From contig CP036296.1 in the NCBI GenBank assembly GCA_007751255.1, positions 3,596,001 through 3,660,000 of the forward strand: a DNA stretch of 64,000 nucleotides, read 5' to 3'. A model generated the notes under the pieces. The model saw only the letters and a list, made by a program, of their open reading frames with translations, did not search any database and was not told where the DNA came from. Position 1 is the first letter of the stretch, and each line of letters starts with the position of its first letter. This DNA is from Engelhardtia mirabilis (GTDB lineage Bacteria; Planctomycetota; UBA1135; GCA-002686595). Both the position numbers and the translations under genes were made by a program. Positions 30,600 to 49,179 of the stretch are shown here, piece after piece.

Positions 30600-30658
30600 G
30601 CCGGAGGGTGGTAGCGGTGGACGGACTTGAACCGCCGACCCGCGAATCGTGATTCCGC
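30600..30658 (-). repeat. Left copy of tRNA-derived direct repeat (candidate attachment site)
   Basis: Copy of the 3' half of a tRNA-Met gene on the minus strand. The first 45 bp (30600-30644) are identical to 49121-49165, and 11 of the next 14 also match. It includes the acceptor 3' strand CACCGCT with A73 and an encoded CCA, the T arm (GGCGG/TTCAAGT/CCGTC) and the anticodon arm. The loop reads ATCACGA (anticodon CAC) instead of a Met loop, and the upstream 5' half cannot form the matching acceptor AGCGGTG. It is therefore a remnant and not a working tRNA. I interpret it as the left boundary of an integrated island. Confidence 0.75.
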
Positions 30659-32492: not shown

Positions 32493-35400
32493 ATGAAGGA
32501 CCCGGAGATCTGGCCTCCCTGGCTCGTCCGTATTCGCGCTCAGCAGGGAAACGAGGAGGGAGTCGGCGCTGGTCTGCTGATCGCCCCCGACCTCGTCCTC
32601 ACCGCGTGGCACGTGGTGAACGTCGACGGCAAGTACCGTGGCACGGCGACGTCGGGCGGGACCCCGATGGCCGCGGCCAGGATCGACCTGGAGATCGGAG
32701 GCAAGCACCGCCGGTCCATCCCGACCCCCCACCAGCGGCATGTGTCCTTCGCCGACAAGCCCGTCGACGACGAAGGCCAAGGCCGCGACTACGACCTCGC
32801 GCTGGTCCGGCTCGAAGAGGACCCGGTCCCGATCGATTCGGGCGACCTCCTTCCGATCGCCCGCGGTGTGCGACGACTCGAGTACCTGGCCCTCGGTGAC
32901 CTCGGTCCGGACGAGCCCTTCCAGGTCGTAGGGTTTCCGGGTGGGAGCCTGCGCACGAAGCGTTTCGACGACGGTGCCCCCGACCCGGAGCGTGCCGGCG
33001 ACGAGTTCTACGAGGTCCACCTGGGCCACCGAGTTCCCGAGGGCTACAGCGGCGGACCCATTCTGGCCGAGGTCGACGGCCAAGCTCTGTGCCTGGGGCT
33101 CGCGAGCCTCGGTGGAGCCACGGTCGGCTCTTCGGTCCAGACCTTCTCGGGAGCGATCATCGAGTTCCTCGATCAACAGAAGGTCCTTCGACGCGAAGGC
33201 GATCGGCTTCAGGTACCGACCGAGGACCTCGGCCGATTGCTCCTGCGCAGGCCACTCGAGTGCATCGCGGAACGCAACGACCGGCTTCCGCCGATCTTGT
33301 CCCGGTCCGCCCGCAAGGAGTGGAAGCTGCACGACCTGTTCCAGGAGCGGATCGTCGTGGACCGGGCAGCGACGGGCGGTGGCGACAGTGACGGTAACGC
33401 GAAGGCCGGTGGCCTGAGGGAGTTGGTGGATTGGACGCCCACCGTCGACTCGCCCCCGCGATGGGTCCTGCGAGGCGCGGGGGGAACCGGCAAGACGACT
33501 CTCCTGCGCCACCTCGCCTTCGAGCTGGCCCGCGAGGCGAATCAGGCCGGGGATGGCGCAGCGCTGCCACCGGTGGCCATCTTCCTGCGCCTGCCCCTCA
33601 TCGTCCGTCGAGGGCCCGACTGGAGAGCGGCGCTGTTCGACGAGCTGAGAGATCGCGTGGATCGTGCTGCGATCCTCACGAGGGCGCTCAGCTCGCGCGT
33701 TTCCGAACCCCGGATCCTGCTGCTGCTCGACGGGCTCGACGAGGTCGACGCCGGAGAAGTGACCGAGAACACCATCTCGCTCCTGCTTCAGGGCCTGCCC
33801 GATCACCTCCCCGGAGTCGGCCTGGTCGTGGGCACTCGCCCGACGGGCTTCGACGACCGAGAGCCGGCGCTCACGCGACACTGGAACACCGCTTCGGTCG
33901 AGCCCCTGGATCGAGATCACCAGATCCGACTGGTCACCGAGGTGTCGAAGGCGATCGGCCGGCCTTGCTCAGAGAAGGCGACCGCCGCATGGGTCCATCA
34001 GATCAGTCGGGACGAGCGATTCGCCGACATCCGCGGCAACCCACTCTGGTTGACGCTGGCCGCCCTCGCCGTGGACCCGGAGACGGGGGCTCCACCGCCG
34101 TCCATGTCGGGCCTGCTCGCCAAGGCAGTCGACCACCTTGTAATGGGCATGCACCGCGGCGACCTCGAGCCCAGAGCTCGCCGCAGACGTACTCCCGTGG
34201 CAGGTCCGATCCCCAGCGCGGCCCGTCCGGTCTTGGGAACGATCGCACTCGCCATGACCCTCCAGCGTCAGGACGAACTCCGCTTCGACGACCTGGTCGA
34301 GGTCTGCAAGAACCTCCGCAAGAGAGCGGACCACGACGTCCGAGGCAGCGATGAACTCTGGGCTCGGTTGACGGAAGCCTGGGAATTGCTCGAGGACGAT
34401 TCGGAGGAGAGCATCCTCGATCAGCTTTCGCTCGGCACCGATATCCTGAGCCCGCTCGAGGAGGACGGCGAACAAGTGGAAGACGGGGGATCCGACGCCG
34501 ACGAGCTCTGGTCCTTCAGACATCGGACCGTGAAGGAGTTCCTCTCTGCCGATCAGCTCCGCCGCATGCTCGAAGGCGACGACGCTCCTCACGCCCAACA
34601 GCTGATCGAGGCAGGCCTCGACGCCGACCTCGAGGGCTCGGTCCGGCACTGGGCCGGACCTGCGGCCCTTCTCGTCGAGATGCTCGACGACGCGACCGGG
34701 GCGGAACGCGTGCTCCGGTGCCTCGCACCGAGGGATCCCGAGGCCGCTCGCCGCGCCCTGCTAGGAAGACCGAACGCCACGGTGGGCTCGATCCACATCG
34801 TCTTGGCGTCGCTCGAAAAGGAAGGGGACCGCGCGGCGGTGATCGAGCAGATCGATCGGCTGATCGAGGATCGTCAGGAGGCCTTCGATCTCCTGCGAAG
34901 CCTCGGCCTCGATCCCCGGATCCGAGCGGACCTGTACTTCGTCGACGAAGCACTGCTGGCCTTCGGAGTGCGGCACGAGGATCTCGCGGACGAGGCCGAT
35001 GCCGCGAGACTGCGGATCTACGAGGAGCTGCCGGTCGAGCCGACGTGGCGTGCACCGTTCGAGCGGACGTTCGGGGATCCGGGGGTGCCCCTGTGGCGAC
35101 CGGTAACGCGGCACCTGACGTTCGGTTACGGCGATCGCGAGCTGGAGCAGGTGACGGAGCAGCCGTTCCAGATCTCGGCGGTTCCGGTGACGGAGGAGAT
35201 GTACCGGATATTCGACCCGCACGATGATCAGCGGAAGTCGGAGCCAGGTCTCCTTCCGGCGCGCTCGGTCAGTTGGTGGGGTGCGATGGCCTTCTGTCGC
35301 TGGGCCGGAGCGAAGCTCGGTTTCGGTCTCGCCGGGAGCCTGCCGACAGAGCGTCAGTGGGAGTGTGCCGCGCGGGCCGGGACCGAGAGCGACTACTGGT

Positions 35401-35717
35401 TCGGCCCCGAGGCGCTCGACGAGCATGGGTGGTATGGGCAGAACTCTGAGTCTCGTGCCCACGATGTCGCGACTCGGCCGCCGAACGGCGACCGGCCCCA
35501 GCAGCCCAACCCGAACGGCCTTTTCGATGTCCACGGAAACGTCTGGGAGTGGTGTGTGGACCTCTTCGGCCGCGACGGCCCGAGGCGCGTGTTGCGCGGC
35601 GGTTGCTTCTGGTACGCGGCCGCGAGCTGTCGCTCGGGGTTCCGCTACTGGGACCACCCGGCGGACCGCGACCGGCTCCGGGGCTTCCGCGTCGTCCTCC
35701 CGGCCGACCTTCGATGA
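32493..35717 (+). CDS. DGR target 1: trypsin-like protease, NACHT NTPase and variable FGE-fold domain
   Basis: 1074 aa. Residues ~1-230 are a trypsin-like protease with a full triad: His40 in 'LTAWHV', Asp101 in 'DYDLALV', Ser186 in 'GYSGGP'. Residues ~315-640 are a NACHT-type STAND NTPase with P-loop 'GAGGTGKTT' (328-336), Walker B 'LLLLDGLDEV' (~410-419) and a later 'FRHRTVKEFLSADQL' typical of STAND proteins. Residues ~840-1074 are an FGE-sulfatase (SUMF1-like) C-type-lectin fold with 'GSLPTERQWECAARAG' and 'GLFDVHGNVWEWC'. The last ~45 residues are the variable repeat copied from the TR. No signal peptide, so cytoplasmic. It converges on the RT gene. Confidence 0.93.
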   Translation: MKDPEIWPPWLVRIRAQQGNEEGVGAGLLIAPDLVLTAWHVVNVDGKYRGTATSGGTPMAAARIDLEIGGKHRRSIPTPHQRHVSFADKPVDDEGQGRDYDLALVRLEEDPVPIDSGDLLPIARGVRRLEYLALGDLGPDEPFQVVGFPGGSLRTKRFDDGAPDPERAGDEFYEVHLGHRVPEGYSGGPILAEVDGQALCLGLASLGGATVGSSVQTFSGAIIEFLDQQKVLRREGDRLQVPTEDLGRLLLRRPLECIAERNDRLPPILSRSARKEWKLHDLFQERIVVDRAATGGGDSDGNAKAGGLRELVDWTPTVDSPPRWVLRGAGGTGKTTLLRHLAFELAREANQAGDGAALPPVAIFLRLPLIVRRGPDWRAALFDELRDRVDRAAILTRALSSRVSEPRILLLLDGLDEVDAGEVTENTISLLLQGLPDHLPGVGLVVGTRPTGFDDREPALTRHWNTASVEPLDRDHQIRLVTEVSKAIGRPCSEKATAAWVHQISRDERFADIRGNPLWLTLAALAVDPETGAPPPSMSGLLAKAVDHLVMGMHRGDLEPRARRRRTPVAGPIPSAARPVLGTIALAMTLQRQDELRFDDLVEVCKNLRKRADHDVRGSDELWARLTEAWELLEDDSEESILDQLSLGTDILSPLEEDGEQVEDGGSDADELWSFRHRTVKEFLSADQLRRMLEGDDAPHAQQLIEAGLDADLEGSVRHWAGPAALLVEMLDDATGAERVLRCLAPRDPEAARRALLGRPNATVGSIHIVLASLEKEGDRAAVIEQIDRLIEDRQEAFDLLRSLGLDPRIRADLYFVDEALLAFGVRHEDLADEADAARLRIYEELPVEPTWRAPFERTFGDPGVPLWRPVTRHLTFGYGDRELEQVTEQPFQISAVPVTEEMYRIFDPHDDQRKSEPGLLPARSVSWWGAMAFCRWAGAKLGFGLAGSLPTERQWECAARAGTESDYWFGPEALDEHGWYGQNSESRAHDVATRPPNGDRPQQPNPNGLFDVHGNVWEWCVDLFGRDGPRRVLRGGCFWYAAASCRSGFRYWDHPADRDRLRGFRVVLPADLR
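35575..35709 (+). repeat. DGR variable repeat VR1 (end of target 1)
   Basis: 135-bp copy of the TR at 37193-37327. I count 15 substitutions at positions that are A in the TR and 1 elsewhere (a G to C). Changed codons include AAC to TAC, GAC, AGC and CTC, and TAC to TTC. The encoded variable face is spaced through 'RGGCFWYAAASCRSGFRYWD' and on to 'RDRLRGF'. The last ~25 bp contain no A in the TR and are conserved, fitting the role of the mutagenic-homing initiation region. Confidence 0.93.
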
Positions 35718-35734
35718 TCGATCTTTGAGATGTG
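35711..35734 (+). promoter_or_regulatory. Conserved element downstream of VR1 (candidate DGR homing site)
   Basis: 24-bp element containing GATCTTTGAGATGTG, overlapping the stop codon of target 1. The same element follows VR2 and VR3. The core ATCT-TTG-AGAT can form a short hairpin. It is absent next to the TR, as expected for a feature marking the recipient repeat. Confidence 0.6.
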
Positions 35735-36042
35735 TTCGAATGTGGACCCGAACGGACGTTCCATTCCTCGCGCGGCCCTCGATGACCGAACAGAATTCCG
35801 GTCGTCCCGTTGTTCCGGTCGTCTGCGACCGATCGGTTCTCGAACGCCCCAGATCCCCGGGAACCGAGCCTCCGGTCCCCGCCCAGAAATGGCCCGTTGT
35901 GACCGGCCGACCCGACATCCGGAAGCAGGACGACCCTCAACGGCCATCAGGTTCCGGATCGGGCCTACCCCCTCCACACCCGAGGAGCGCGGCTCGGCCA
36001 CCAAGGTCAGCCCGACGCCCTCGACCGCTCTGACGGCTTTCC
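35735..36042. other. Intergenic region between target 1 and reverse transcriptase
   Basis: About 310 bp between convergent genes. Open frames exist but lack protein-like composition. I see no clear terminator hairpin. Confidence 0.45.
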
Positions 36043-37068
36043 TCAGACGCACAGGACGCTTCCCAACGCTCCTGCCCAACCCTCAGCAGGAATGGCCGGC
36101 CCGGTCCCACGAACGTACCTGGCCGCCCGTGCGCCCATCCGCCTCGCGTGCCTCGGGAGGGGTTCGATCCCGCTGCGGGTTACCAAGTGTCCGAGGGCAT
36201 CGAGGCGACCGCTGCAGGATCGCGGGCGAGCCCCGGGGCGCTTCAATCGCAGACCGAGTCGCTCGTCGAGGTACCGCCCCACGTCGTCCCGCGCGGCCCG
36301 CAAGGCCGACCTAGAGTCACCGAACAGGAACAGATCGTCGACGTAGCGGACATAGCCGGGCACGCGAAGCTCGCGCGCGACATGGCTGTCGAGGCCCAGC
36401 GGCACAACGTGGGCCGCCAAGACCTGGCTCGTGTACGCACCGATGGGCAGTCCCTCGCCGGGCGGCGGCCAATCGGGATCCAGTCGAGCGAAGGCTCGTA
36501 CGTGACGATCGTCGTAGAGGCCCCGCCCGGACTCCAGGATCCGATCGACGACCTGCAGGAACCGCTCGTCGCGGATCCGGCGACGGAGCAGGGACCGGAC
36601 CAGCTCGATCCGGATGCTCGGGAAGTAGCTTCGAACGTCCAGATGCACGAACCACGCATGACGGCGGACCAGCTCCAGGATCCGGAGCAACGCGCGATGG
36701 GTTCCCCGTCCGGTGCGGCAGGCGTAGTCCGCGTCCGATAGGGATCGCTCGAGCACAGCCTCGACCAGGCGCGCGACCGCCGTGTGCACCACTCGATCCA
36801 GGACCGATGCTCGTGCGATGACCCGGGGCTTGGGATCGTGCAGGAACAAGAGATCGAAGGCCCCGTGCCGCCAACGGGCGTCCACGAGCGCGGCACGCAA
36901 CTCGCGAAGCTCGGATTCCCGGCGGAACAGGAAGGTCGCGACATCCGCCCGCCGCCGCTTCCCCCGGACGGTGACCCGCGCAGCCTCGTCGAGCCGGTCC
37001 TCGTCGACCAGCTGCTCGAAGAGGCCGCCCGTGGTCCTGGTCAAGGTGCCCCTCCGGACGCTCGCCAC
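36043..37068 (-). CDS. Diversity-generating retroelement reverse transcriptase
   Basis: 341 aa, typical length for DGR reverse transcriptases. The palm motifs are present: 'VHLDVRSYFPSI' (Asp144) and the catalytic 'YVRYVDDLFLF' (YVDD, 242-245). The 'GLPIGAYTSQ' segment carries the IGxxxSQ motif specific to DGR enzymes, in place of the QGxxxSP of retrons and group II introns. 'HDPKPRVIARASVLDRVVH' is the usual N-terminal RT block. It makes error-prone cDNA from the TR transcript with adenine-directed misincorporation, in partnership with Avd. The TR lies 124 bp upstream on the same strand, so both should be on one transcript. Confidence 0.96.
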   Translation of the reverse strand: MASVRRGTLTRTTGGLFEQLVDEDRLDEAARVTVRGKRRRADVATFLFRRESELRELRAALVDARWRHGAFDLLFLHDPKPRVIARASVLDRVVHTAVARLVEAVLERSLSDADYACRTGRGTHRALLRILELVRRHAWFVHLDVRSYFPSIRIELVRSLLRRRIRDERFLQVVDRILESGRGLYDDRHVRAFARLDPDWPPPGEGLPIGAYTSQVLAAHVVPLGLDSHVARELRVPGYVRYVDDLFLFGDSRSALRAARDDVGRYLDERLGLRLKRPGARPRSCSGRLDALGHLVTRSGIEPLPRHARRMGARAARYVRGTGPAIPAEGWAGALGSVLCV

Positions 37069-37192
37069 CGGCGGTGACTACGGGAACGGAGGGGCGAGGT
37101 CGGACGAGCGGGCCGGAAGGTCCGGCTGCGACGTCCGCGGGGAGGGGCCTGATCGCGGATCCGCTCGCCTCGCGAGCTCCGTCCGCGGGCTG

Positions 37193-37327
37193 GGTCGGCC
37201 GGGAGGACGACGCGGAAGCCCTGGTTCCGGTTGCGGTTCGCCGGGTGGTTCCTGTTCCGGTACCCCGAGCGACAGTTCGCGGCCGTGTTCCAGTAGCTAC
37301 CGCCGCGCATCACGCGCCTCGGGCCGT
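37193..37327 (-). repeat. DGR template repeat (TR)
   Basis: Non-coding template between the Avd-like and RT genes, same strand as both. Read on the minus strand in the target frame it would encode 'RRVMRGGSYWNTAANCRSGY' and then an Asn-rich stretch built of AAC codons (RNRNHPANRNRNQGF). AAC is the usual DGR choice because changing its A bases reaches many amino acids without making stops. The 3' ~25 bp are free of A. Its 5' end overlaps the last ~30 bp of the Avd-like frame. Confidence 0.95.
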
Positions 37328-37701
37328 GGGGCCCCTGCCCCTGCACCGGACTTGGAGAATCGCCGGGAGCTGCGGCCCCATCCACCGAGCATGCGGCCGA
37401 TCGTGTCGAGCTCCGCCGAAGCGAACCGCATCCGTCGCTTCGTCAGGTAGCCCAGCGACTCGGCGAGCCGCAGCAGCACCCGGAGGCGGACCACACCTCG
37501 ATCGGCGGCGCGACGATGGTCGTCCCTCTCGGCCGGGAAGGTCAATGCTATCGAGACATCCGCGACGAGGTCCTGGACGGCGTCGGCGACCCGTCCGGCC
37601 GAGCACATGGCTTCGGGTTGCGGCCATCGCGCGACCTCGGCCAAGAGCCAGGTCGCGAGGTCATGGCTGCGTACGTAGAGAGGCGCGCGTCGCCAAGTCA
37701 C
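37297..37701 (-). CDS. avd: Avd-like four-helix-bundle DGR accessory protein
   Basis: 134 aa, GTG start overlapping the upstream gene by 4 bp (GTGA). All-helical composition with the late 'AELDTIGRMLGGWGRSSRR', matching the ending of Avd/four-helix-bundle proteins (E.IGR.LGGW.R). In characterised DGRs Avd forms a basic pentameric barrel that binds the RT and template RNA and is needed for mutagenic cDNA synthesis. Position just before the TR and RT is the classical order. The very C-terminal residues run into the TR, so the true 3' end may be shaped by the template. Confidence 0.8.
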   Translation of the reverse strand: MTWRRAPLYVRSHDLATWLLAEVARWPQPEAMCSAGRVADAVQDLVADVSIALTFPAERDDHRRAADRGVVRLRVLLRLAESLGYLTKRRMRFASAELDTIGRMLGGWGRSSRRFSKSGAGAGAPRPEARDARR

Positions 37702-38288
37702 CGCTCGCGCCTCCCGAGCTTCTCGCTCCAGCGGATGAGGCCCCCCAAGGTCGGAAGGACCTCCGACTCAATCCGCGCGGCCCAGGCGAGCTGCTCCCCC
37801 TCCGGCTCGGCGTCCTGGATCAACAGGAGGCCCACGCAACGGCTCATCAAGCACCGGGCGCGGCGGAGGGCCTCGCCCTTACGATCCGCGTCGTAGGCGT
37901 GGACGCCCTCGCAGACGGCCAGCAGTCCGGACAGGAGCGCGCGCTCCGCAGCGGACGACGATGATCCTGTCGATGCCGCGGTTGCTCGCATAGCCGCGAG
38001 AACCGCGCGCCCACGACGAAAGCACTCGACGTCCTCCACGGATCGCCGACGGTCACCGTGCCGCACGGCCGCCCTTGAGGGAAGGGCCTCTTCGACCGCC
38101 TCGCGCACATCGTCGGCTCGTCGTTGGAGCGACTGACGCTGATCCTCGGTCAAGGGCAGGCTCTCGCGCCGGATGCGCCAGGACTTGCCATGCTTGGCCC
38201 CCCGCAACTCACCCCGTGCGAGCCGTGCACGGACGGCGCGCGGGCTCACCCCGAGAACGACGGCAGCTTCGCGAACGCTCAGTTCCAT
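37698..38288 (-). CDS. Helix-turn-helix protein with a helical (Avd-like?) C-terminal domain
   Basis: 196 aa from the ATG giving 'MELSVREAAVVLGVSPRAVR'. The first ~45 residues are an excisionase/MerR-type HTH ('ARLARGELRGAKHGKSWRI'), a DNA-binding domain. The remaining ~140 residues are helical and end 'LPTLGGLIRWSEKLGRRER', which resembles the end of Avd-type bundles; that likeness is by eye. Coupled to the Avd gene by GTGA. It could regulate the DGR operon or bring RT/Avd to DNA. A longer frame upstream is compositionally non-protein-like. Confidence 0.7.
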   Translation of the reverse strand: MELSVREAAVVLGVSPRAVRARLARGELRGAKHGKSWRIRRESLPLTEDQRQSLQRRADDVREAVEEALPSRAAVRHGDRRRSVEDVECFRRGRAVLAAMRATAASTGSSSSAAERALLSGLLAVCEGVHAYDADRKGEALRRARCLMSRCVGLLLIQDAEPEGEQLAWAARIESEVLPTLGGLIRWSEKLGRRER

Positions 38289-38638
38289 CCCGGTGGATCG
38301 AACCGGCTGGATGGATCGAGGTTCCGATCCAGAAGACGATCTCGTGGACGTCGTGGAACTCGTGACCTCCTCGAGGATGCCGATGACCGGATCGAGGGAC
38401 GAAGTGGCCATCGACGGCCGCATGAGTAGCCATCAATGGCCGCAACTGGCCGTCGCGACGTGTGAGCGGTCAGTGCGGGAGGTCGAACCGAGTCCAATCG
38501 GAAACGACACCGGCACGCGACGGCCGAACGGCGCAGGGGTCGCCTCGGTCTCGGGATCCCACCGGAACTGGGTCCGGCCACGTGGTGCCGAGAATCGGCA
38601 CTGCGCGTCCCCTCGGCGACGCTCGGGCCGCTCGAAGA
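38289..38638. other. Spacer between target 2 and HTH gene
   Basis: 350 bp with no supported gene. It holds an 8-bp inverted repeat CGACGGCC/GGCCGTCG (38412-38419 and 38448-38455) amid further GGCC-rich near repeats, about 125-165 bp before the HTH start. This could be an operator for the HTH protein. A promoter for the HTH-Avd-TR-RT unit may lie here. Confidence 0.4.
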
Positions 38639-38662
38639 CACATCTCAAAGATCGATCATCGA
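38639..38662 (-). promoter_or_regulatory. Conserved element downstream of VR2
   Basis: Minus-strand copy of the 24-bp element (core GATCTTTGAGATGTG) that also follows VR1 and VR3. It overlaps the stop codon of target 2. Confidence 0.6.
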
Positions 38663-41600
38663 AGCTCGGCCGGGAGGACGAGGCGGAAGCCCAGGTTCCG
38701 GTTGCGGCCCGCCGGGTGGCTCCTGCTCCGGTACCCCGAGCGACAGCCCGCGGCCGTGTCCCAGTAGCTACCGCCGCGCAACACGCGCCACGGGCCGTCG
38801 CGGTCGAAGAGGTCCAGACACCACTCCCAAACGTTCCCGTGGACATCGAGAAGGCCGTTCGGGTTGGGCTGCTGGGGCCGGTCGCCGTTCGGCGGTCGAG
38901 TCGCGACATCGTGGGCACGAGACTCAGAGTTCTGCTCATACCACCCATGCTCGTCGAGCGCCTCGGGGCTGAACCAGTAGTCACCCTCGGTCCCGGCCCG
39001 CGCGGCACACTCCCACTGGCGCTCGGTCGGCAGGCTCCCGGCGAGACCGAAACCGAGCTTCGCTCCGGCCCAGCGACAGTAGGCCATCGCACACCACCAA
39101 CTGACCGAGCGCGCCGGAAGGAGACCTGGCTCCGACTTCCGCTGATCATCGTGCGGGTCGAAGACCCGGTACATCTCCTCCGTCACCGGAACTGCCGAGA
39201 TCTGGAACGGCTGCTCCGTCACCTGCTCCAGCTCGCGATCGCCGTAACCGAACGTCAGGTGCCGCGTTACCGGTCGCCACAGGGGCACCCCCGGATCCCC
39301 GAACGTCCGCTCGAACGGCGCACGCCACGTCGGCTCGACCGGCAGCTCCTCGTAGATCCGCAGTCTCGCGGCATCGGCCTCGTCCGCGAGATCCTCGTGC
39401 CGCACTCCGAAGGCCAACAGTGCTTCGTCGACGAAGTACAGGTCCGCTCGGATCCGGGGGGCGAGGCCGAGGCTTCGCAGGAGATCCAAGGTCTCCATAC
39501 GATCCTCGATCAAGTGCTCTACCTGAGAGATCACGGCCCCCCGATCCTCCTCCTCCTCGAGCGATGAAAGGACGATCATGACAGCATTCGTCGAAACCGC
39601 TCGACTCGCCATCAACGCGCGTCTCGAGATCGCCGGCGCATCCTCGAGGCTCTCGAGCAGGACTTCGACTTCCCCTTCGACGAGTCGTTCCGCCAGCATG
39701 CCGAGCGGCTCGGACCAGAAACGCGCGACGTCGTCCTCTCCATTGTCGCTCTCAGCGTCACCATCCATGCTCCCCTGTTCTGCGCCAACCAGCTCGAGCC
39801 AGTCGCACCAAGAACGCAATCCGGCCGGACCCTGCGAACTCAACCAGCCTTCATTCGTGCTCAACCTGAGCGCACTCAGGATGCTTCGCGCATTGTCAGC
39901 CAGACGAACGTCGTCAGCATCGATCTGCGAGAGCGCTCGGTCGAACCGCTGCAGAAGTGCACGACGCACAGCCCCAGCGGCCGACCGCGCGCGAGCAAGA
40001 ACATCGTCCTGCCCCCCTGCCGCCGTCCACCTCTCCCAGAGCCATTCCGACGTCAGAAACTCGAGCGTCGACCGGTGCCAGAAGCGCCAGTCCTCGTCAA
40101 TGTCATTTCCGCGTCGTCGGATCCTCCGCTCTGGCGGTGTCAGGATCGAATTGCGTTCGAGCCACCTGAGGACGTCATTCGGAGCGCAACGTTCCTTCAG
40201 ATCCAGGAGGTCCCGGCGAAGGTCGGTCCATGGCGTCGGAGCGCTTCCATCAGCGCCGCGCTCCGAGTCCTTCAGATCCTCGAGCCATGTCTCCATGACG
40301 CTGCGAGGGACCTGTACCAGGCCCTCCGAAGACATCCGGTGGGCCAACCATCGGAGCACGGGCCGGACGGACCGTGGAAGCGCCTCGGGCTGCACCGAGT
40401 CGTCGTCCGCCACTTCGTGGATCTGCCGCTGATCGCGGCGGTGCTTGCCCGCCTCCAGTCGACGGAGGATCGCGTCGAGCAGGTCGACCCGCGAGCCTGG
40501 CTCACGGTCCTCCTCGAAGATCACGATGGCTGCCATGGTCAACCACAGCGGGTTCCCGCGTTCCTCGTCGTAGCGGGCATCGACTTGGATCCGGTCGACC
40601 CAGTCCTCGAGTGCCGCCGCGTCCATCGTCGGCTTCGCGGGGCCGCCGAACTTCCGGTGCTGCCCCACCAGCTTGACGAGCAATTCCTTCTGCCGATCGG
40701 CACCCAGAGGTTCGACGCTCGCCAAGCTCCACGCTTTGAACTGGGCGCTCCGTTCAAGGTAGCGTGACGGTCTGGTTCCGAGCGCCACGGGCGTTCTGGG
40801 CAGCTCGCGCGGGATCGAAGCGAGCAGGGCCCCCACGTTCGGCCGCTCGGCCTTGCTCACCTCGTCGTAGCCGTCCAGCAACAGCACCAGCTCACCGCGA
40901 GGATCTTGCGCGCCGAGCAGCTCCCCCGTGTAGTGGTCGACCTTTTTCGTGACGTATTGGACGAGGTCTTCGAACGGACGAGTGCCGACGTTCTTCAGGT
41001 CCGGTAGACGGACGAGCAAAGCGACCCTGTCGCCTTCGTCGATGGGACGATCTGAGCCGGTCGCGAGGCGAGCGTCCGCGAGCCGCTTGGCCAGCTGGCG
41101 AAGGATCGTCGTCTTGCCCGTTCCGGCTTCACCGCGAAGGATGATCCGGGGTTGATCCGATTCCGCGGAGGGTGAGTTCGAGCCGGGCCCGGACGGGACC
41201 TCACTTGCCGGTGACTCCTCGTCGAACGCATCCTCGAGCCCGAGGTGTCGCGCGAGGGACGTCTGTCCATGCACCGCGGCGCGAACCGCCTCCCCGTCCC
41301 GCGGAACCTCCAAGGTGACGCGATCGACGAAGACGTCGTCGAGGCTGAGATCGGGTGCCCATGGGAGGACGTCGCACTCGGCCGAGAGCCGACCGAGAAA
41401 CGGTTTCAACAGCAGTGAGCGAAGATCGGGTGAGCTCGGTAGCGCGAGCGATTCGCCCCCGCCGTCCCGCTCCTCGATCACCCGCCGAGCGTTGTCGAGG
41501 AACGGTCCGACGGTGCCTGCCAGCAGGTAGCCCGAGAACGGGTGATTGGACCCGCCGACGATGGTGATCCCGACCCAGTGGAGATCCGATCCGACACGCA

Positions 41601-42216
41601 GCAGCAGGGGCCCTCCACTGAAGCCGCCGTGGACCCTCCCGTGTTCGGCCCCAAGATCACGAGCCTCCCGATGGAGGTGGTCAGGGTCCCAGCCCTCGAG
41701 CCGTGCGCTCTGGTCGTCTGGGCTCTCGACGCCGTCGGGGAAGCCCCAGATCGCGAACGACGAACCGCGGGCGACCAGCGCTCGGGCCTCGAGCTCACCA
41801 AGACCACGGGTCAGCGACGCAACGGCATCCCCCTCGGCCAGGCCAGGAACCCTCAGCAGTGCCAGGTCCACCGAGCGCCCGACCCCAGAGAGGTCGCCCG
41901 ACGCGAACAGGACGTCGGCCGACGACGGGTCGTACGGACCGATCGAGTGAATGGACGGTTCGGAGTCCAGTGCCGTGGGGTGATCGGCAAGTGTCACCAC
42001 GACGCCCTTGGCAGGATTCGGCGACTCGGACCGGCCACCACTGAACGTCCCGGTCCGGCTGAGAACGTGCCAGGCGGTCAGAACCCATCCCGGCGCGACG
42101 ATCACGCCGGAACCGAAGTTGTCATCAGTCGTCGTCTTGCCGTTCTTGGTCTTCTCGACCCGGCACTGGATGCGAACCAGGGATGGCACCGCCGAAGGCC
42201 AATCGAGATCAGGCAA
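38656..42216 (-). CDS. DGR target 2: trypsin-like protease, NACHT NTPase and variable FGE-fold domain
   Basis: 1186 aa. Protease triad: His50 in 'LTAWHV', Asp117 in 'SVDLALL', Ser200 in 'GGFSGGP'. NACHT NTPase: P-loop 'GEAGTGKTT' (362-370), Walker B 'LVLLLDGYDEV' (~443-453), STAND motif 'FWHRSTLEFLTSEWL'. The C-terminal ~230 residues are an FGE-fold domain almost identical to target 1, ending in VR2. The N-terminal two thirds share architecture but little sequence with target 1, so sensor heads are exchanged between different bodies. It starts 3 bp after the stop of the unknown 445-aa gene and appears to belong to one minus-strand unit with HTH, Avd, TR and RT. Confidence 0.93.
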   Translation of the reverse strand: MPDLDWPSAVPSLVRIQCRVEKTKNGKTTTDDNFGSGVIVAPGWVLTAWHVLSRTGTFSGGRSESPNPAKGVVVTLADHPTALDSEPSIHSIGPYDPSSADVLFASGDLSGVGRSVDLALLRVPGLAEGDAVASLTRGLGELEARALVARGSSFAIWGFPDGVESPDDQSARLEGWDPDHLHREARDLGAEHGRVHGGFSGGPLLLRVGSDLHWVGITIVGGSNHPFSGYLLAGTVGPFLDNARRVIEERDGGGESLALPSSPDLRSLLLKPFLGRLSAECDVLPWAPDLSLDDVFVDRVTLEVPRDGEAVRAAVHGQTSLARHLGLEDAFDEESPASEVPSGPGSNSPSAESDQPRIILRGEAGTGKTTILRQLAKRLADARLATGSDRPIDEGDRVALLVRLPDLKNVGTRPFEDLVQYVTKKVDHYTGELLGAQDPRGELVLLLDGYDEVSKAERPNVGALLASIPRELPRTPVALGTRPSRYLERSAQFKAWSLASVEPLGADRQKELLVKLVGQHRKFGGPAKPTMDAAALEDWVDRIQVDARYDEERGNPLWLTMAAIVIFEEDREPGSRVDLLDAILRRLEAGKHRRDQRQIHEVADDDSVQPEALPRSVRPVLRWLAHRMSSEGLVQVPRSVMETWLEDLKDSERGADGSAPTPWTDLRRDLLDLKERCAPNDVLRWLERNSILTPPERRIRRRGNDIDEDWRFWHRSTLEFLTSEWLWERWTAAGGQDDVLARARSAAGAVRRALLQRFDRALSQIDADDVRLADNARSILSALRLSTNEGWLSSQGPAGLRSWCDWLELVGAEQGSMDGDAESDNGEDDVARFWSEPLGMLAERLVEGEVEVLLESLEDAPAISRRALMASRAVSTNAVMIVLSSLEEEEDRGAVISQVEHLIEDRMETLDLLRSLGLAPRIRADLYFVDEALLAFGVRHEDLADEADAARLRIYEELPVEPTWRAPFERTFGDPGVPLWRPVTRHLTFGYGDRELEQVTEQPFQISAVPVTEEMYRVFDPHDDQRKSEPGLLPARSVSWWCAMAYCRWAGAKLGFGLAGSLPTERQWECAARAGTEGDYWFSPEALDEHGWYEQNSESRAHDVATRPPNGDRPQQPNPNGLLDVHGNVWEWCLDLFDRDGPWRVLRGGSYWDTAAGCRSGYRSRSHPAGRNRNLGFRLVLPAELR
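38664..38798 (-). repeat. DGR variable repeat VR2 (end of target 2)
   Basis: Copy of the TR. In the core I count 10 substitutions at TR adenines and 1 elsewhere (GTC to CTC). Changes include AAC to GAC, GGC and AGC, and CAG to CTG. The encoded segment begins 'RVLRGGSYWDTAAGCRSGY' and continues 'RSRSHPAGRNRNLGF'. It is the copy closest to the TR in its Asn-rich part. Confidence 0.93.
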
Positions 42217-42219
42217 GCT

Positions 42220-43557
42220 TCACGCCCCCGGGATGCGGTCGAGGATCTCGCGCGCCCATTGTTTCGAGGTCACCGATCCGTGCTCCCCAACGTGCTCCAG
42301 CCCGGCAATCCAACCGGCACGATGGGACTCCGGCACCTCGCTCCAGTTGTCCGCATCGGCCAGAACGTGAGCCAGTGCCAGCCCGCACAGCTGGACCTCG
42401 AACTCCTCGTCGTAGAGCAGGTGGGAGAACGCCGCGTCATCGGGCAGCTCGAGTTTCTCGCGAAACTTCTCGAGTAGCTCCTCACTGCCGACCGCACCGC
42501 CGCCGTCGACGACGACGATCTCACCGTGGCCATCGGAGCTACCGCGCTGAACCGCCGTTCCCCTGGCAGGACCTTGATCCTGAATAACATCGGTCGCCCT
42601 GAGTCCTCTGCGGTTGAACCGGTTCAGCGACTCGATGAAGATCGATGCAGCGAGCATCGCAACCGGCTTCCCGCTCCAGGATTCGCCGCGCGGACCGTTT
42701 TCGAGCGAACGAGGTCCCGACAACGCTTTCCAAACGGCCGCTTCGAGCAACGCCGGGGCCTTCTCGATCGTGGCGTCCGAGATGAAGATGCTCTTCGACG
42801 CGCCCGCCTTCCGAGGTCGGCGCGCGTAGCCGATGTCGATGACTCGAGCCGTCACCAGCCGCAGGACAGTCTCGAGCAGCTTACTCCCAAGGATCGTCTG
42901 CACCACGAGGCCGGGACCGCTCTCAGGGATCGGGCACAGACCCCAGCGCATCATCGGATTCTTTACGACCTCGTCGTCGTCCGCGCCCTCCTTCTTCCTC
43001 TGCTCCCCGGTCCAGAAAGTGCGGCCGGTCTCGATGTCCGGCAGCGCACGCCGCGGTCCACGAAGGACCGCCCGTAGCTGGGACCCGACAGATTCAAAGG
43101 GGTCGAACTTCAGAGCCTCTACGGCCACCCTCCAGTCGTCACTCGACCGCGCCGCCCGCTGGAACTGGTCCATCCGCTTCTTCTCGGACTTCTGGCTTCC
43201 GTATCGGAACAGGCTCTCGTCGATCCAATCCTCGGAGTAGGGGTGGAGTGCGAGCAACAGCGCGTGACCGCGAACTCGATCGTCACTGGTTCGGGCCGAC
43301 AGCGTCCACTCTCCCCGATCCAGTTCCTCGGGGAACGGATAGGGCTTCGCGTGGTACTCCATCTCGACGTCGTCCACGAAGACGTAGTTGCCATCGGCCG
43401 CCTCGTCGTAGGCGATGAGCGTCGGGGAGATCGGATGCCGCGAGGCGCTCTCGCTGACGGGCTCCATGGGGAACTCCGTCATCCCCCCGGGGGGCGGATC
43501 GGGCGGCTCGGGCGGATCTCCGGCTTCGTACAGCGGACGGACGTCGAACTCGCTCAT
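42220..43557 (-). CDS. Unknown protein encoded directly upstream of DGR target 2
   Basis: 445 aa, not recognised. The start is set at the ATG giving MSEFDVRPLYEAGDPPEP; a Pro-rich N-terminal tail (PPEPPDPPPGG) follows. The rest looks like a globular soluble protein ('TLIAYDEAADGNYVFVDDVE', 'HALLLALHPYSEDWIDESLF', 'IVVVDGGGAVGSEELL'). There is no signal peptide, no transmembrane helix and no motif I can name. The gene stops 3 bp before target 2, so they should be co-translated and may interact. It could be a protease substrate, an effector or an adaptor; this is inference from position only. Confidence 0.7.
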   Translation of the reverse strand: MSEFDVRPLYEAGDPPEPPDPPPGGMTEFPMEPVSESASRHPISPTLIAYDEAADGNYVFVDDVEMEYHAKPYPFPEELDRGEWTLSARTSDDRVRGHALLLALHPYSEDWIDESLFRYGSQKSEKKRMDQFQRAARSSDDWRVAVEALKFDPFESVGSQLRAVLRGPRRALPDIETGRTFWTGEQRKKEGADDDEVVKNPMMRWGLCPIPESGPGLVVQTILGSKLLETVLRLVTARVIDIGYARRPRKAGASKSIFISDATIEKAPALLEAAVWKALSGPRSLENGPRGESWSGKPVAMLAASIFIESLNRFNRRGLRATDVIQDQGPARGTAVQRGSSDGHGEIVVVDGGGAVGSEELLEKFREKLELPDDAAFSHLLYDEEFEVQLCGLALAHVLADADNWSEVPESHRAGWIAGLEHVGEHGSVTSKQWAREILDRIPGA

Positions 43558-43671
43558 GGCACTCGGAAACGATCGGGTGATTCGGATCGGCCGGGTCCAC
43601 AGGCAACCTCCTCCCGGCTCCGTGGTCGAACCTAGCGCCGCCAACGGGGTCCGGGAAGGCCCTAGCCGGCG

Positions 43672-43716: not shown

Positions 43717-46700
43717 ATGCTCCCGAGCACAGACAGATCTCGACCCTACGTCCTGCGTGTCACCTCCGACGACGGGAACCCGGCGGCGGGGATCCTGGTC
43801 TCGGAGAACTATGCGGTGACCTGCTGGCACGTCGCCAACGGCAGTGGAAAGTTCAGCGAGAAGGTCCCCAACTCCCGTGAGGCGGCATGGGGGCTCTGCG
43901 CCGGCGGTCGGCCGGCCGAGGTCGTGGCCTGGGGCGACCTCCCTGGGATCGGCTATGAGGTAGACGTGGCTCTGCTGAAGCTCGAGGGTGCGCCAGCGAG
44001 TCTCGAGAGTGCCGACCTTGCCCTGGCGTACGACTCCCGACTCTTCGACCAGCTCCTCGACAGTGTTTCCTACCTCGAGGTGGAGGGGTTCCCTCGCCAC
44101 TCGCCGACCTCGCACGTCGAATCCTGCCGGCCACACAAGGGATCGGGATCGTCGAGTACGAGCCGGGGTGGCCAGGTCACCGAGTTCGGCCTCTTCGCCC
44201 GCGTCCACGAGGGAGTCAGCGGCGGACCCGTGGTCGCCGGACGTGGAGGCGAGGAGGTCTGCGTCGGGATGGCCTGTCTCGGCAGCTCGAGGTCGCTGCA
44301 GATGGCGGCCGTGTCGTCGGGTGAACTGCTGGCGCTCCTCGAGCACCACTTCGACGGAGAGCTTCCCCATGCGGTCCGAACCAGGCCCCTCGACGACTGG
44401 CTCATCGACCATGGCGTGATCGAAACGCGCGGGTCCTATCTCCGTGCACTGAGGGCTCGGGTCGAAGAGGACCACGACTTGCTCAGGATGCTCGGGGTCG
44501 ATGACCTCGCCGACGAGTTCTTCGATCGGGTCTACGTCCGACTCGAGGTCGGAGTCAGTCCCTCGTTCGCGCAGCGTCTAGCCGATCTAGGCGATGAAGA
44601 AGACGCCAGCATTCCCCCGTCTGGTGTCCGCCTAGACCAACTGCTGTCGATCCCGCCTGCCCGGTTCGGCATCGCCGGGCCGCGATTCGTCCTGCGCGGC
44701 GAACCAGGCTCGGGCAAGACCACGATCCTGCGCCAGCTCGCCTGGTCCCTCGCCGGCGACGACGACGCCGCCTGGACGCCGGTAAGGATCGGGCTCCCCG
44801 ACTTCGCGCGCTGGAGAGCGGGGCAGAATCGAAAGGGCGACGCCTGGGACAAGCTGCTCGACTACCTCGAGGAGCAGCAGGACATTGCCGATGCTCGCCG
44901 CGAGGCGCTCGTGGCCGAGCGCGAGCATGGGCGTCTGCTGCTGCTCCTCGACGGGCTCGACGAGGTCCGCGGCGAGTTGAGAACCACCACTCGCTCCTGG
45001 CTCGCGAACCTCTCCGAACAGATGGGCTCGTCCGCCATCGTCGTGGCGACGCGGACGATTCCGTATCGCAAGCCCGCGGGCGGCTACGTGGAGGCGGACG
45101 TCGAGCCCATGGGAATCGCTCAACAGAAGAAGTTCCTGAGCGCCTGGATCGGCGACGAGGGGGCGGCCGAGGATCACATCAAGCGCTGGGCCGACCTCCC
45201 CCACAGCCGATTGTCGCTTCTGGCCGGGAACCCGCTCTGGTTGACGTACTTCGGCTTGCTCTTGCGCCGTGGCGAGACGCCCGATGAGTCTCGCAGCGCA
45301 CTCTACGAGCAGGTCCTCGAGCTGCTCCTCTCCGGTGAGTTCCAGGATCCTCCGAAGAAGAACCCGAATCCGGCCGTGATGCGCGCTGGGCTCGTGTTCC
45401 TGGCGGTCCAGATGAGCAAGAAGGGCGAGACAGCAGTTCGCAAGTCGGACCTCGACGCCCTATTCCAAGAGCAAGGCGTCGAGACGGACGTCGCCGTCCG
45501 CGCCGTGCTCAACGAATGGAGCCGACGCCCTGACGATTTCCTCCAGGACGTGCAGGCGATCACGGGGATCATCGGTCGATACGGCGAGAAGGAGGGGAGG
45601 AACTGGCGTTTCTGGCACGGCCAGCTTCGTGAGGTCCTGGTCATGATTTGGCTGCGGAGCCTCACCCGCGACGAGCAGCTCGCCGAGGCCGCCGCGCTGG
45701 CGGAGGATCACCTCGGCTTCTTCGCCGAACCGTTCGCGCTCCTGGTCGGCACGGATGAGCTGGCCGACAAGGACGAGATGATCGAGCGGCTCGTCGAGCA
45801 CAATCCGGTCCTGGGGCGCAGAGTGCTGGCCAGTGCTACAGGAGTGTCGCCGTCGACGGTCGAGAAGGTGCTGGGGCTCGATTCGTCGGACCCTGAGCGT
45901 CGCGGCGAGATTCTCCTGGACCTGCCGAACATCCTGGGTCGCGGGGAGGGGGCACGGGCCGCAACGATTCAACTCGTCGAACGGCTGTGGATGGCGAGCC
46001 GGTCCAGCGAGGAGGAGATGTGGGCGGACTGCTACCACCTGGACGAGCTACTCGTCGCGCTCGAGGAGGAACCGGGTGAGCTAGTGTCCACTCGTAGAGC
46101 CCTGTACTTCCGGCGCTTTGGACAACCGGACCGTCCGACCTTGAAGGAGTTGTTTCCGCCGATCCACGGGCTCACCCCCTTTCCTCGGATCGATCCCGGT
46201 TCATTCGCAATGGGTGACGGGGACGCTCCCAGTCGCCAGCAGGTGAAGATCCCAACCCCATTCCGGCTCGGGGCAACTCCCGTCACCGAGAGCCAGTTCA
46301 GCTTGATGTCTGGCAGGGAGATCGAGACGAGTAGCCGTAAGCCGAAGGGCGAGATCAACTTCTTTGGAGCCATGCTGTACAGCAGGTTCCTCGGTTGGGC
46401 GATGGGATCGGATCAGCCGGGCGACCTGCCGACCGAGGCTCAGTGGGAGTACGCAGCGCGAGCAGGCAACGAGGGTGACTACTGGTTCAGCCCTGGGGCC
46501 CTGGACGACCACGGCTGGTACGAAGGCAACTCGGGAGGTCGGGTCCACGACGTCGCCACTCGCCCCCCGGATGGCGAGGAGCCGCAGCAGCCGAATCCGA
46601 ACGGCCTGTTCGACGTGCACGGGAATGTTTGGGAGTGGTGCCAGGACCTTCTCGGCGGCGCCGGCCCGTGGCGCGTGATGCGCGGCGGTAGCTTCTGGGA

Positions 46701-46818
46701 CTCGGCCGCGAACTGTCGCTCGGGGTACCGGATCAGGAACCACCCGGCGAGCCGCCTCTGGGACCTGGGCTTCCGCGTCGTCCTCCCGGCCGACCGGAGC
46801 TTGGCCATCGATGATTGA
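43717..46818 (+). CDS. DGR target 3: trypsin-like protease, NACHT NTPase and variable FGE-fold domain
   Basis: 1033 aa and the most diverged target. Protease triad: His38 in 'VTCWHV', Asp83 in 'EVDVALL', Ser168 in 'EGVSGGP'. NACHT NTPase: P-loop 'GEPGSGKTT' (328-336), Walker B 'LLLLLDGLDEV' (~407-417). FGE-fold domain from ~residue 800: 'IDPGSFAMGDGD', 'GDLPTEAQWEYAARAG', 'GLFDVHGNVWEWC', ending in VR3 plus a 9-residue tail. VR3 lies ~9.3 kb from the TR, so the DGR must act at a distance. The gene is divergent from the unknown 445-aa gene. Confidence 0.93.
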   Translation: MLPSTDRSRPYVLRVTSDDGNPAAGILVSENYAVTCWHVANGSGKFSEKVPNSREAAWGLCAGGRPAEVVAWGDLPGIGYEVDVALLKLEGAPASLESADLALAYDSRLFDQLLDSVSYLEVEGFPRHSPTSHVESCRPHKGSGSSSTSRGGQVTEFGLFARVHEGVSGGPVVAGRGGEEVCVGMACLGSSRSLQMAAVSSGELLALLEHHFDGELPHAVRTRPLDDWLIDHGVIETRGSYLRALRARVEEDHDLLRMLGVDDLADEFFDRVYVRLEVGVSPSFAQRLADLGDEEDASIPPSGVRLDQLLSIPPARFGIAGPRFVLRGEPGSGKTTILRQLAWSLAGDDDAAWTPVRIGLPDFARWRAGQNRKGDAWDKLLDYLEEQQDIADARREALVAEREHGRLLLLLDGLDEVRGELRTTTRSWLANLSEQMGSSAIVVATRTIPYRKPAGGYVEADVEPMGIAQQKKFLSAWIGDEGAAEDHIKRWADLPHSRLSLLAGNPLWLTYFGLLLRRGETPDESRSALYEQVLELLLSGEFQDPPKKNPNPAVMRAGLVFLAVQMSKKGETAVRKSDLDALFQEQGVETDVAVRAVLNEWSRRPDDFLQDVQAITGIIGRYGEKEGRNWRFWHGQLREVLVMIWLRSLTRDEQLAEAAALAEDHLGFFAEPFALLVGTDELADKDEMIERLVEHNPVLGRRVLASATGVSPSTVEKVLGLDSSDPERRGEILLDLPNILGRGEGARAATIQLVERLWMASRSSEEEMWADCYHLDELLVALEEEPGELVSTRRALYFRRFGQPDRPTLKELFPPIHGLTPFPRIDPGSFAMGDGDAPSRQQVKIPTPFRLGATPVTESQFSLMSGREIETSSRKPKGEINFFGAMLYSRFLGWAMGSDQPGDLPTEAQWEYAARAGNEGDYWFSPGALDDHGWYEGNSGGRVHDVATRPPDGEEPQQPNPNGLFDVHGNVWEWCQDLLGGAGPWRVMRGGSFWDSAANCRSGYRIRNHPASRLWDLGFRVVLPADRSLAIDD
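46661..46795 (+). repeat. DGR variable repeat VR3 (end of target 3)
   Basis: Copy of the TR with 10 substitutions at TR adenines and 1 elsewhere inside the core (CGG to TGG). Changes include AAC to GAC, ATC, AGC and CTC, and ACG to TCG. The encoded segment begins 'RVMRGGSFWDSAANCRSGY' and continues 'RIRNHPASRLWDLGF'. It differs from VR1 and VR2 at many of the same codons, showing independent diversification. Confidence 0.93.
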
Positions 46819-46831
46819 TCTTTGAGATGTG
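46808..46831 (+). promoter_or_regulatory. Conserved element downstream of VR3
   Basis: Third copy of the 24-bp element (core GATCTTTGAGATGTG), with one base different from the other two. Here the coding frame is shifted relative to target 1, and the protein uses a later stop inside the element, so conservation is of DNA and not of protein. Confidence 0.65.
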
Positions 46832-49120: not shown

Positions 49121-49179
49121 GCCGGAGGGTGGTAGCGGTGGACGGACTTGAACCGCCGACCCGCGGATTATGATTCCGC
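49121..49179 (-). repeat. Right copy of tRNA-Met-derived direct repeat (candidate attachment site)
   Basis: 49130-49179 is the 3' half of a tRNA-Met gene on the minus strand: anticodon stem GCGGA/TCCGC with loop ATCATAA (anticodon CAT), T arm GGCGG/TTCAAGT/CCGTC, acceptor strand CACCGCT, A73 and encoded CCA. The expected 5' half (AGCGGTG plus a D arm) is absent to the right, so the tRNA is interrupted here. Including 9 bp of 3' flank, 45 bp match 30600-30644 exactly. This is what integration into a tRNA 3' end leaves at the distal junction; the intact tRNA should lie beyond the right edge. Confidence 0.8.

Follow-up and report, generated by a model that had tools for sequence, protein, structure and literature searches.

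A chromosomal diversity-generating retroelement in Engelhardtia mirabilis that probably diversifies three trypsin-NACHT-FGE genes, and a candidate target tag behind its variable repeats

A diversity-generating retroelement (DGR) cassette lies on the minus strand at positions 36043-38288 of the window analysed here, a 64,000-nucleotide stretch of Engelhardtia mirabilis contig CP036296.1. The cassette comprises a reverse transcriptase (RT), the accessory protein Avd, a template repeat (TR) and a gene with a helix-turn-helix (HTH) domain, and is very probably (at roughly 85%) a chromosomal DGR that diversifies three trypsin-NACHT-FGE genes. These are target 1 (32493..35717, plus strand), target 2 (38656..42216, minus strand) and target 3 (43717..46818, plus strand). 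A preliminary description had proposed a complete cassette, all on one strand, whose single TR serves three proteins on both strands and on both sides of it. All four components were found on the minus strand, and the TR matches three variable repeats (VRs) at the ends of the proposed genes, about 1.5 kb (VR1), 1.3 kb (VR2) and 9.3 kb (VR3) from the TR, in agreement with that proposal. Absent from the preliminary description are the nature of the targets as STAND-NTPase conflict proteins, the fact that this type of system is known, and the place of the cassette in a branch that carries the HTH gene and has a tag 3' of its targets.

The TR (about 37193..37327, minus strand) shows adenine-specific mismatches to VR1 (35568..35709, plus strand), VR2 (38664..38798, minus strand) and VR3 (46662..46795, plus strand). 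Over a 132-nt core in which 24 TR positions are adenine, the mismatches were found to fall at TR adenines in 15 of 16 cases for VR1 and in 10 of 11 for each of VR2 and VR3 (hypergeometric P 9e-13, 6e-8 and 6e-8, respectively). At 21 of the 24 adenines at least one VR is altered, and all 24 occupy codon position 1 or 2. With free variation at every adenine, the 17 adenine-bearing core codons would allow about 7.6e13 sequences for each VR, and a stop cannot arise at any of these codons. Searching the whole genome with the 142-nt TR returned six matches, namely the TR itself, VR1 to VR3 and, at the genome's two other DGR loci, two weaker hits of 75% and 68%.

Comparison of the targets with one another revealed a second signature. 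Over 300 positions just upstream of the VR, 95 differences separate targets 1 and 3, and 89 separate targets 2 and 3, versus differences at 2 of 108 non-adenine VR sites in either pair (p 1.9e-12 and 1.4e-11, respectively). Targets 1 and 2, which are recent duplicates, differ at 17 of 24 adenine sites versus 13 of 300 positions upstream (p 3.5e-15), and their non-adenine VR sites are no more alike than the upstream sequence (p 0.37). The homogenisation of non-adenine VR sites between targets that are about 30% divergent just upstream is a retrohoming footprint; because these sites are homogenised and the adenine sites divergent, the VRs have been overwritten from the TR. Two points weigh on the other side: the adenine excess between targets 2 and 3 is not significant (11 of 24 versus 89 of 300 upstream, p 0.11), and the suggestion that the DGR is active at present comes from one genome of the species. 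It is unlikely that the element has decayed, with intact anatomy and no activity in this strain. Broken copies do occur among the relatives (cited here by locus number), with a partial RT in L013, L046, L048 and L050, but in the window the RT, Avd, HTH protein and all three targets are open with their motifs kept, and the same TR adenines are differently substituted in the three VRs.

DGR-type RTs carry the motifs YxDD and [ILVM]GxxxSQ. The 341-aa window RT (36043..37068, minus strand) contains YVDD and IGAYTSQ, as had been noted beforehand, and matches Pfam RVT_1 (E 4.6e-10) and phrog_1423 (E 3.1e-63); its closest sequence match among solved structures is 8ub7_A, a DGR RT (E 1.3e-24). In a tree of 32 rows, from which seven rows had been dropped because of truncated group II sequences, the window RT was placed within a branch of 22 cellular DGR RTs (support 95/98), apart from six group II intron RTs (100/100). 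Within it, the window RT belongs to a 12-row branch (100/99) in which every row has the HTH gene and outside which the HRDC loci fall. Four phage DGR RTs were not resolved as a single group with the cellular ones (a weak 59/44 split), so that the tree alone is insufficient for DGR monophyly.

Avd (37297..37701, minus strand), a four-helix accessory protein, was recognised from both profiles and fold, upholding the earlier Avd-like assignment. It matches NF033474 (E 1.4e-13; 51.1 bits, curated cut-off 80), phrog_3206 (E 6.5e-12) and Pfam bAvd (E 8e-9; 36.4 bits, below the cut-off of 40), and its model (pLDDT 86.8) matches Bordetella Avd 4dwl (TM 0.89 by target length) and the Avd chains of 8ub7. 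The 3' end of its frame overlaps the 5' end of the TR. Between the TR and the RT lies a spacer (37069..37192, minus strand) that carries GATCAGGCC near 37146-37154, resembling a motif in other spacers of the branch; of the 12 spacers of the HTH branch, 8 contain this motif, GA[GT]CAGRYC, at a distance of 38-76 nt from the TR end. It is perhaps an RNA site for RT-Avd or for priming, a role that we assume by analogy with the BPP-1 spacer.

Pfam identified Trypsin_2, NACHT and FGE domains in all three targets, and the protease and Walker motifs are present in each. The VR-bearing C-terminal domain is FGE-sulfatase (E 6.8e-31, 9.3e-31 and 1.1e-25, respectively). DGRs that diversify STAND-NTPase/FGE proteins have already been published (passages in Dore 2024, PMC10907252; Kaur 2020; Kaur 2021, PMC8195603). 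Among the STAND-NTPase DGRs of multicellular bacteria, as described in the relevant passages on Thiohalocapsa PB-PSB1 (PMC10907252), DGRs 3 and 6 of that organism share with the window duplicated targets, a central NACHT/nSTAND NTPase and a C-terminal FGE/CLec domain with the VR; peptidase or TIR effectors and several DGRs per genome are further common features of its DGRs. Unlike those elements as described there, the window has three trypsin-NACHT-FGE targets per TR, an HTH-plus-bundle gene between target and Avd, and a 7-nt tag. That source also raises the possibility that an HTH gene close to DGR 8 (clade 5A) is an effector. The STAND NTPase-FGS conflict systems, in the passages of PMC8195603 concerned, share the architecture of an effector (trypsin, TIR, calcineurin or kinase) followed by STAND NTPase and FGS, with an RT and a four-helix accessory protein nearby; those passages mention neither an HTH accessory nor a target tag, both of which are present here.

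Among relatives, the targets in L011, L013, L043, L078 and L083 keep NACHT and FGE constant and have the N-terminal effector swapped, the exchanged effectors being TIR, calcineurin-like phosphoesterase, SIR2, DUF4062 and trypsin. Of 24 loci inspected, 15 have a pair of FGE targets that converge on the cassette.

What marks a gene as a target? Behind all three window VRs, 2-14 nt away and overlapping the stop codon, stands TCGATGATYGATCTTTGAGATGTG, a tag located at 35711..35734 (plus strand) for target 1, 38639..38662 (minus strand) for target 2 and 46808..46831 (plus strand) for target 3. With up to 3 mismatches allowed, this 24-mer occurs three times in the 6.95 Mb of the genome, only at its three targets (control, 0). 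The DGR locus at 1.26 Mb has its own form of the tag, again confined to its three targets. The first model of the tag was built by eye from six loci and missed the window tag, which is one base shorter; its best hits in L013 and L050, loci unseen beforehand, fell at FGE target ends. A later, gapped model, trained with the tested locus held out, recovers the window tag. With it, 18 targets in 10 loci were found to beat all non-target positions (0 of 20,074-127,966 per locus). One target of L083 had no better-or-equal non-target position and its other target had one, and the model was weaker outside the core branch (L041, L048, L007 and L084-L086), with 1-29 such positions. Scored by pattern, a tag is present in 23 of 35 VR flanks versus 0 of 35 TR flanks (21 TRs); these 23 comprise 14 of the 23 VR flanks of the HTH branch and all 9 from the class II HRDC branch. 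Anchors for L007 and for the second target of L009 were set by hand at the VR end, the frame running past it, and the TR ends of some relatives were also set by hand. The class II branch has its own octamer tag, CTTCACnnCTTCAC, with which 9 of 9 targets in six held-out loci beat all non-target positions. The class II tag also scores strongly (24.1) in L046, a locus with a truncated RT.

The periodicity of the tag likewise differs between branches. Self-matches in HTH-branch flanks (n=25) peaked at lag 7 (z 10.7) and lag 14 (z 7.6), and those in class II flanks (n=9) at lag 8 (z 6.2), relative to base shuffles. With real windows from these loci as the background, target flanks had a mean lag-7 score of 6.28 versus 4.33, and scores of at least 7 were reached by 11 of 25 targets versus 1.9% of windows; this test covered 25 of 32 target flanks, near-copies and L007 being omitted, and paired targets of one locus are non-independent. 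Among 12 TR flanks, one likewise scored 7 at lag 7. The varying number of tandem 7-nt units, for example in L048 and L011, has the look of slippage, and the tag could be a by-product of RT or repair slippage at the 3' junction, or a drifting ancestral leftover. Such an origin is nevertheless improbable: across RTs of 53-60% identity the tag retains its sequence as well as its period, and it is copied from neither the TR nor the TR flank. Pairing of the tag with the TR-RT spacer was also considered and rejected, as complementarity in seven loci was not beyond chance (p 0.15-0.99). A second alternative sees in the tag a signal for the 3' end of translation or transcription, for instance a set of multi-frame stop codons or a terminator. 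The window tag overlaps the target stop codons, and TGA/TAG at 7-nt spacing gives stops in different frames in L011 and L078; the HRDC-branch tag, however, has no coding-strand stop, the window tag has no stable stem, and it occurs nowhere else in the genome and is absent behind the TR. Such a 3' signal is very unlikely.

Hairpins or cruciforms 3' of the VR, of the BPP-1 type, are common among DGRs and not universal. The BPP-1 DGR shares with the window the order Avd-TR-RT, adenine mutagenesis, a CLec-fold target and a cis element just 3' of the VR; it differs in being phage-borne, with one target and a hairpin. According to a passage in PMC3240598, a 24-bp element just downstream of the BPP-1 VR forms this hairpin and is needed for efficient homing. 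A scan for such a hairpin yielded no stem that beat shuffles at the three window VRs (p 0.25-0.61), whereas the same scan of the BPP-1 control recovered a GC-rich 8-bp stem with a GAAA loop that was equalled in 0 of 200 shuffles. Because the tag lies where BPP-1 has its hairpin and no such stem was found at the window VRs, it is a candidate target-recognition element. Hairpins and tags may coexist at other loci, since 9 of 34 flanks from the window and relatives, among them L041, L085 and L047, have a stem at p<0.05.

The HTH gene (37698..38288 from its ATG, minus strand; the open frame continues to 38423, beyond that start) encodes a winged HTH of the Xis/BldC type followed by a C-terminal four-helix bundle. 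It matches HTH_17 (E 3.6e-10) and the excisionase family TIGR01764 (E 7.9e-9), and its model (pLDDT 89.3, pTM 0.59) shows the winged HTH, a long helix, a loose basic loop and the bundle. The leading Foldseek matches were 2gsc, to the bundle (E 0.044), Pukovnik Xis 4j2n (E 0.17) and BldC 6ama (E 0.51). The N-terminal fold is shared with BldC/excisionase winged HTHs (4j2n: 34% identity, TM 0.71-0.73 by target length; 6ama), from which the window protein differs in the fused bundle, the matches being weak (E 0.17 and above). The Avd model also has 2gsc as its top match, followed by Bordetella Avd 4dwl, and 2GSC is named as an Avd homologue in a passage of PMC10053308. By way of 2gsc, the modelled HTH bundle has a suggestive resemblance in fold to Avd.

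A tblastn survey of 31 loci at 1e-4 detected this gene in 15, which makes 16 when the window is counted, and HRDC in 9, with both in none; L054 has an HRDC-like frame, seen by eye only, and L046 and L050 have neither. Four phage DGR loci also gave neither HTH nor HRDC at the same threshold. The HTH protein was detected in 6 of 154 genomes of the order and in 4 of 392 genomes drawn from the phylum, and none of 38 pattern matches in viral contigs was confirmed as a relative. In the cassette it takes the position that the HRDC gene has in sister cassettes. HRDC-accessory DGRs such as that of Treponema denticola (PMC4891356) resemble the window in having a second nucleic-acid-binding accessory gene in the cassette; the window has an HTH_17 protein instead, and the sister HRDC loci carry the octamer CTTCACnn tag. 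The HTH protein is proposed as a putative lineage-specific DGR accessory and, since BldC, a protein of this type, binds direct repeats head to tail (passages of PMC5859096), as a candidate tag reader.

The tentative form of this proposal, more doubtful than probable, is that the winged-HTH/bundle protein binds the heptamer tag and brings RT-Avd to the gene, and that branches own different tags and readers, HTH proteins for heptamers and HRDC proteins for octamers. The tag-reader idea is unproven and draws on place, conservation and one phylogenetic contrast. A competing explanation, quite possible though short of an even chance, is that reading of the tag falls to RT-Avd or a host protein and that the HTH protein has no role beyond regulating transcription of the cassette. 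HTH_17/excisionase-type domains are frequently regulators, and the HRDC branch has its own tag without an HTH protein in all nine targets of the six held-out loci. The HTH gene, on the other hand, stands where sister cassettes have HRDC, a known DGR accessory (passages in PMC3240598 and PMC4891356), the tag unit varies with branch (period 7 versus 8), and none of the top five tag-model hits per locus was assigned to a cassette promoter, promoters not having been scanned as such.

Several observations count against the HTH protein as tag reader. Tags do not depend on it, because the HTH-less sister cassettes carry the octamer. Three HRDC loci (L045, L047 and L052) have neither tag form (0 of 3 VR flanks). 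The HTH branch is one clade, so that the association of HTH with tag is a single evolutionary contrast. Nine HTH loci besides the window were fetched via the RT and the remaining ones through searches with HTH itself, seven of the 16 having come from an HTH query or from hits of its neighbours; loci obtained in this way are uninformative on the RT-HTH link, HTH having been the query. The Foldseek search with the HTH model gave no match at E<=0.001, and profile comparison of the bundle with Avd was negative (probability 0.4, E 0.14), so that the bundle was rejected as an Avd homologue. The repeat unit of BldC sites is longer than 7 (passages of PMC5859096).

Together, the features suggest the following mechanism. 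The RT with Avd would copy TR RNA and misincorporate at adenines, and the cDNA would replace the matching VR at the 3' end of the three target genes, giving each protein a new ligand-binding face in its FGE (C-type-lectin-like) domain. Once FGE had bound a phage or another invader, NACHT assembly and protease action would follow, by analogy with characterised bacterial NACHT/Avs proteins. The 3' heptamer tag may mark the gene as target, standing in for the hairpin of BPP-1, with the cassette's HTH protein as its possible reader. A ligand of this kind is presumed, and the defence role is suggested by the domains of the targets; for DGR-diversified STAND members, phage defence is likewise a presumption in the papers on these systems (PMC10907252).

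If the tag is indeed read in this way, a gene would become a DGR target by gaining a VR and a tag, and with different tags and readers per branch, even in one genome, several DGRs could coexist without crossing. The way in which mutagenic cDNA locates its target and enters it is the least understood DGR step. Integration into the VR is described as incompletely understood in a passage of PMC12875486. A conserved, sequence-specific element next to the VR and a candidate DNA-binding reader encoded by the cassette itself open this step to testing, and the tag could become a means of addressing diversification to chosen genes. Bacterial STAND sensors whose tips are hypervariable, a proposed analogue of somatic hypermutation, gain a further example in this locus. 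No similar tag or HTH accessory was found in the main texts of open-licence papers on DGRs; judged by the parts of the sources cited, the type of system is known, and the HTH accessory and heptamer tag are its new part.

The genome (6.95 Mb, 2 contigs) contains two further DGRs, at 1.26 Mb (L041) and 6.10 Mb (L042), whose RTs are 52% and 39% identical to the window RT. Their TR-VR mismatches fall at adenines in 18/18, 12/16 and 14/14 cases at the former and in 15/18 and 15/20 at the latter. Their targets are a kinase-FGE protein, two NACHT-FGE proteins and two kinase-NACHT-FGE proteins, so that with the three window targets eight genes are served by three DGRs. Genome-wide, FGE-sulfatase has 41 matches, 40 of them above the family cut-off and most in frames of more than 700 aa; the window TR accounts for the one below the cut-off, and the TR of the DGR at 1.26 Mb for one of the 40.

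The surroundings of the cassette showed several minor features. The FGE ends of targets 1 and 2 form a 939-nt inverted repeat, 93% identical (34797-35735 and 38638-39576), that brackets the cassette; recombination between its arms could invert the cassette or exchange target ends. Immediately upstream of target 2 and in the same orientation, a 474-aa open reading frame (42220..43644, minus strand) had no family in Pfam (E<=0.1), PADLOC (E<=0.01) or NCBIfam (E<=0.1). It is a possible partner of target 2; a conserved partnership was rejected, the frame being present in 1 of 154 genomes of the order, its own. Copies of a tRNA 3' half, 95% identical, at 30600-30658 and 49121-49179 (both minus strand) flank an 18.5-kb conflict region. 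A third copy (G000:C1:3697944), 52.8 kb further on, is part of an intact tRNA-Met that is overlain by a phage integrase frame, and from 49 kb onward the window carries RNA ligase, DUF1376, C5 methylase and YqaJ genes. Considering the tRNA copies, the integrase frame and these genes, a prophage adjoins the DGR island at one attachment site.

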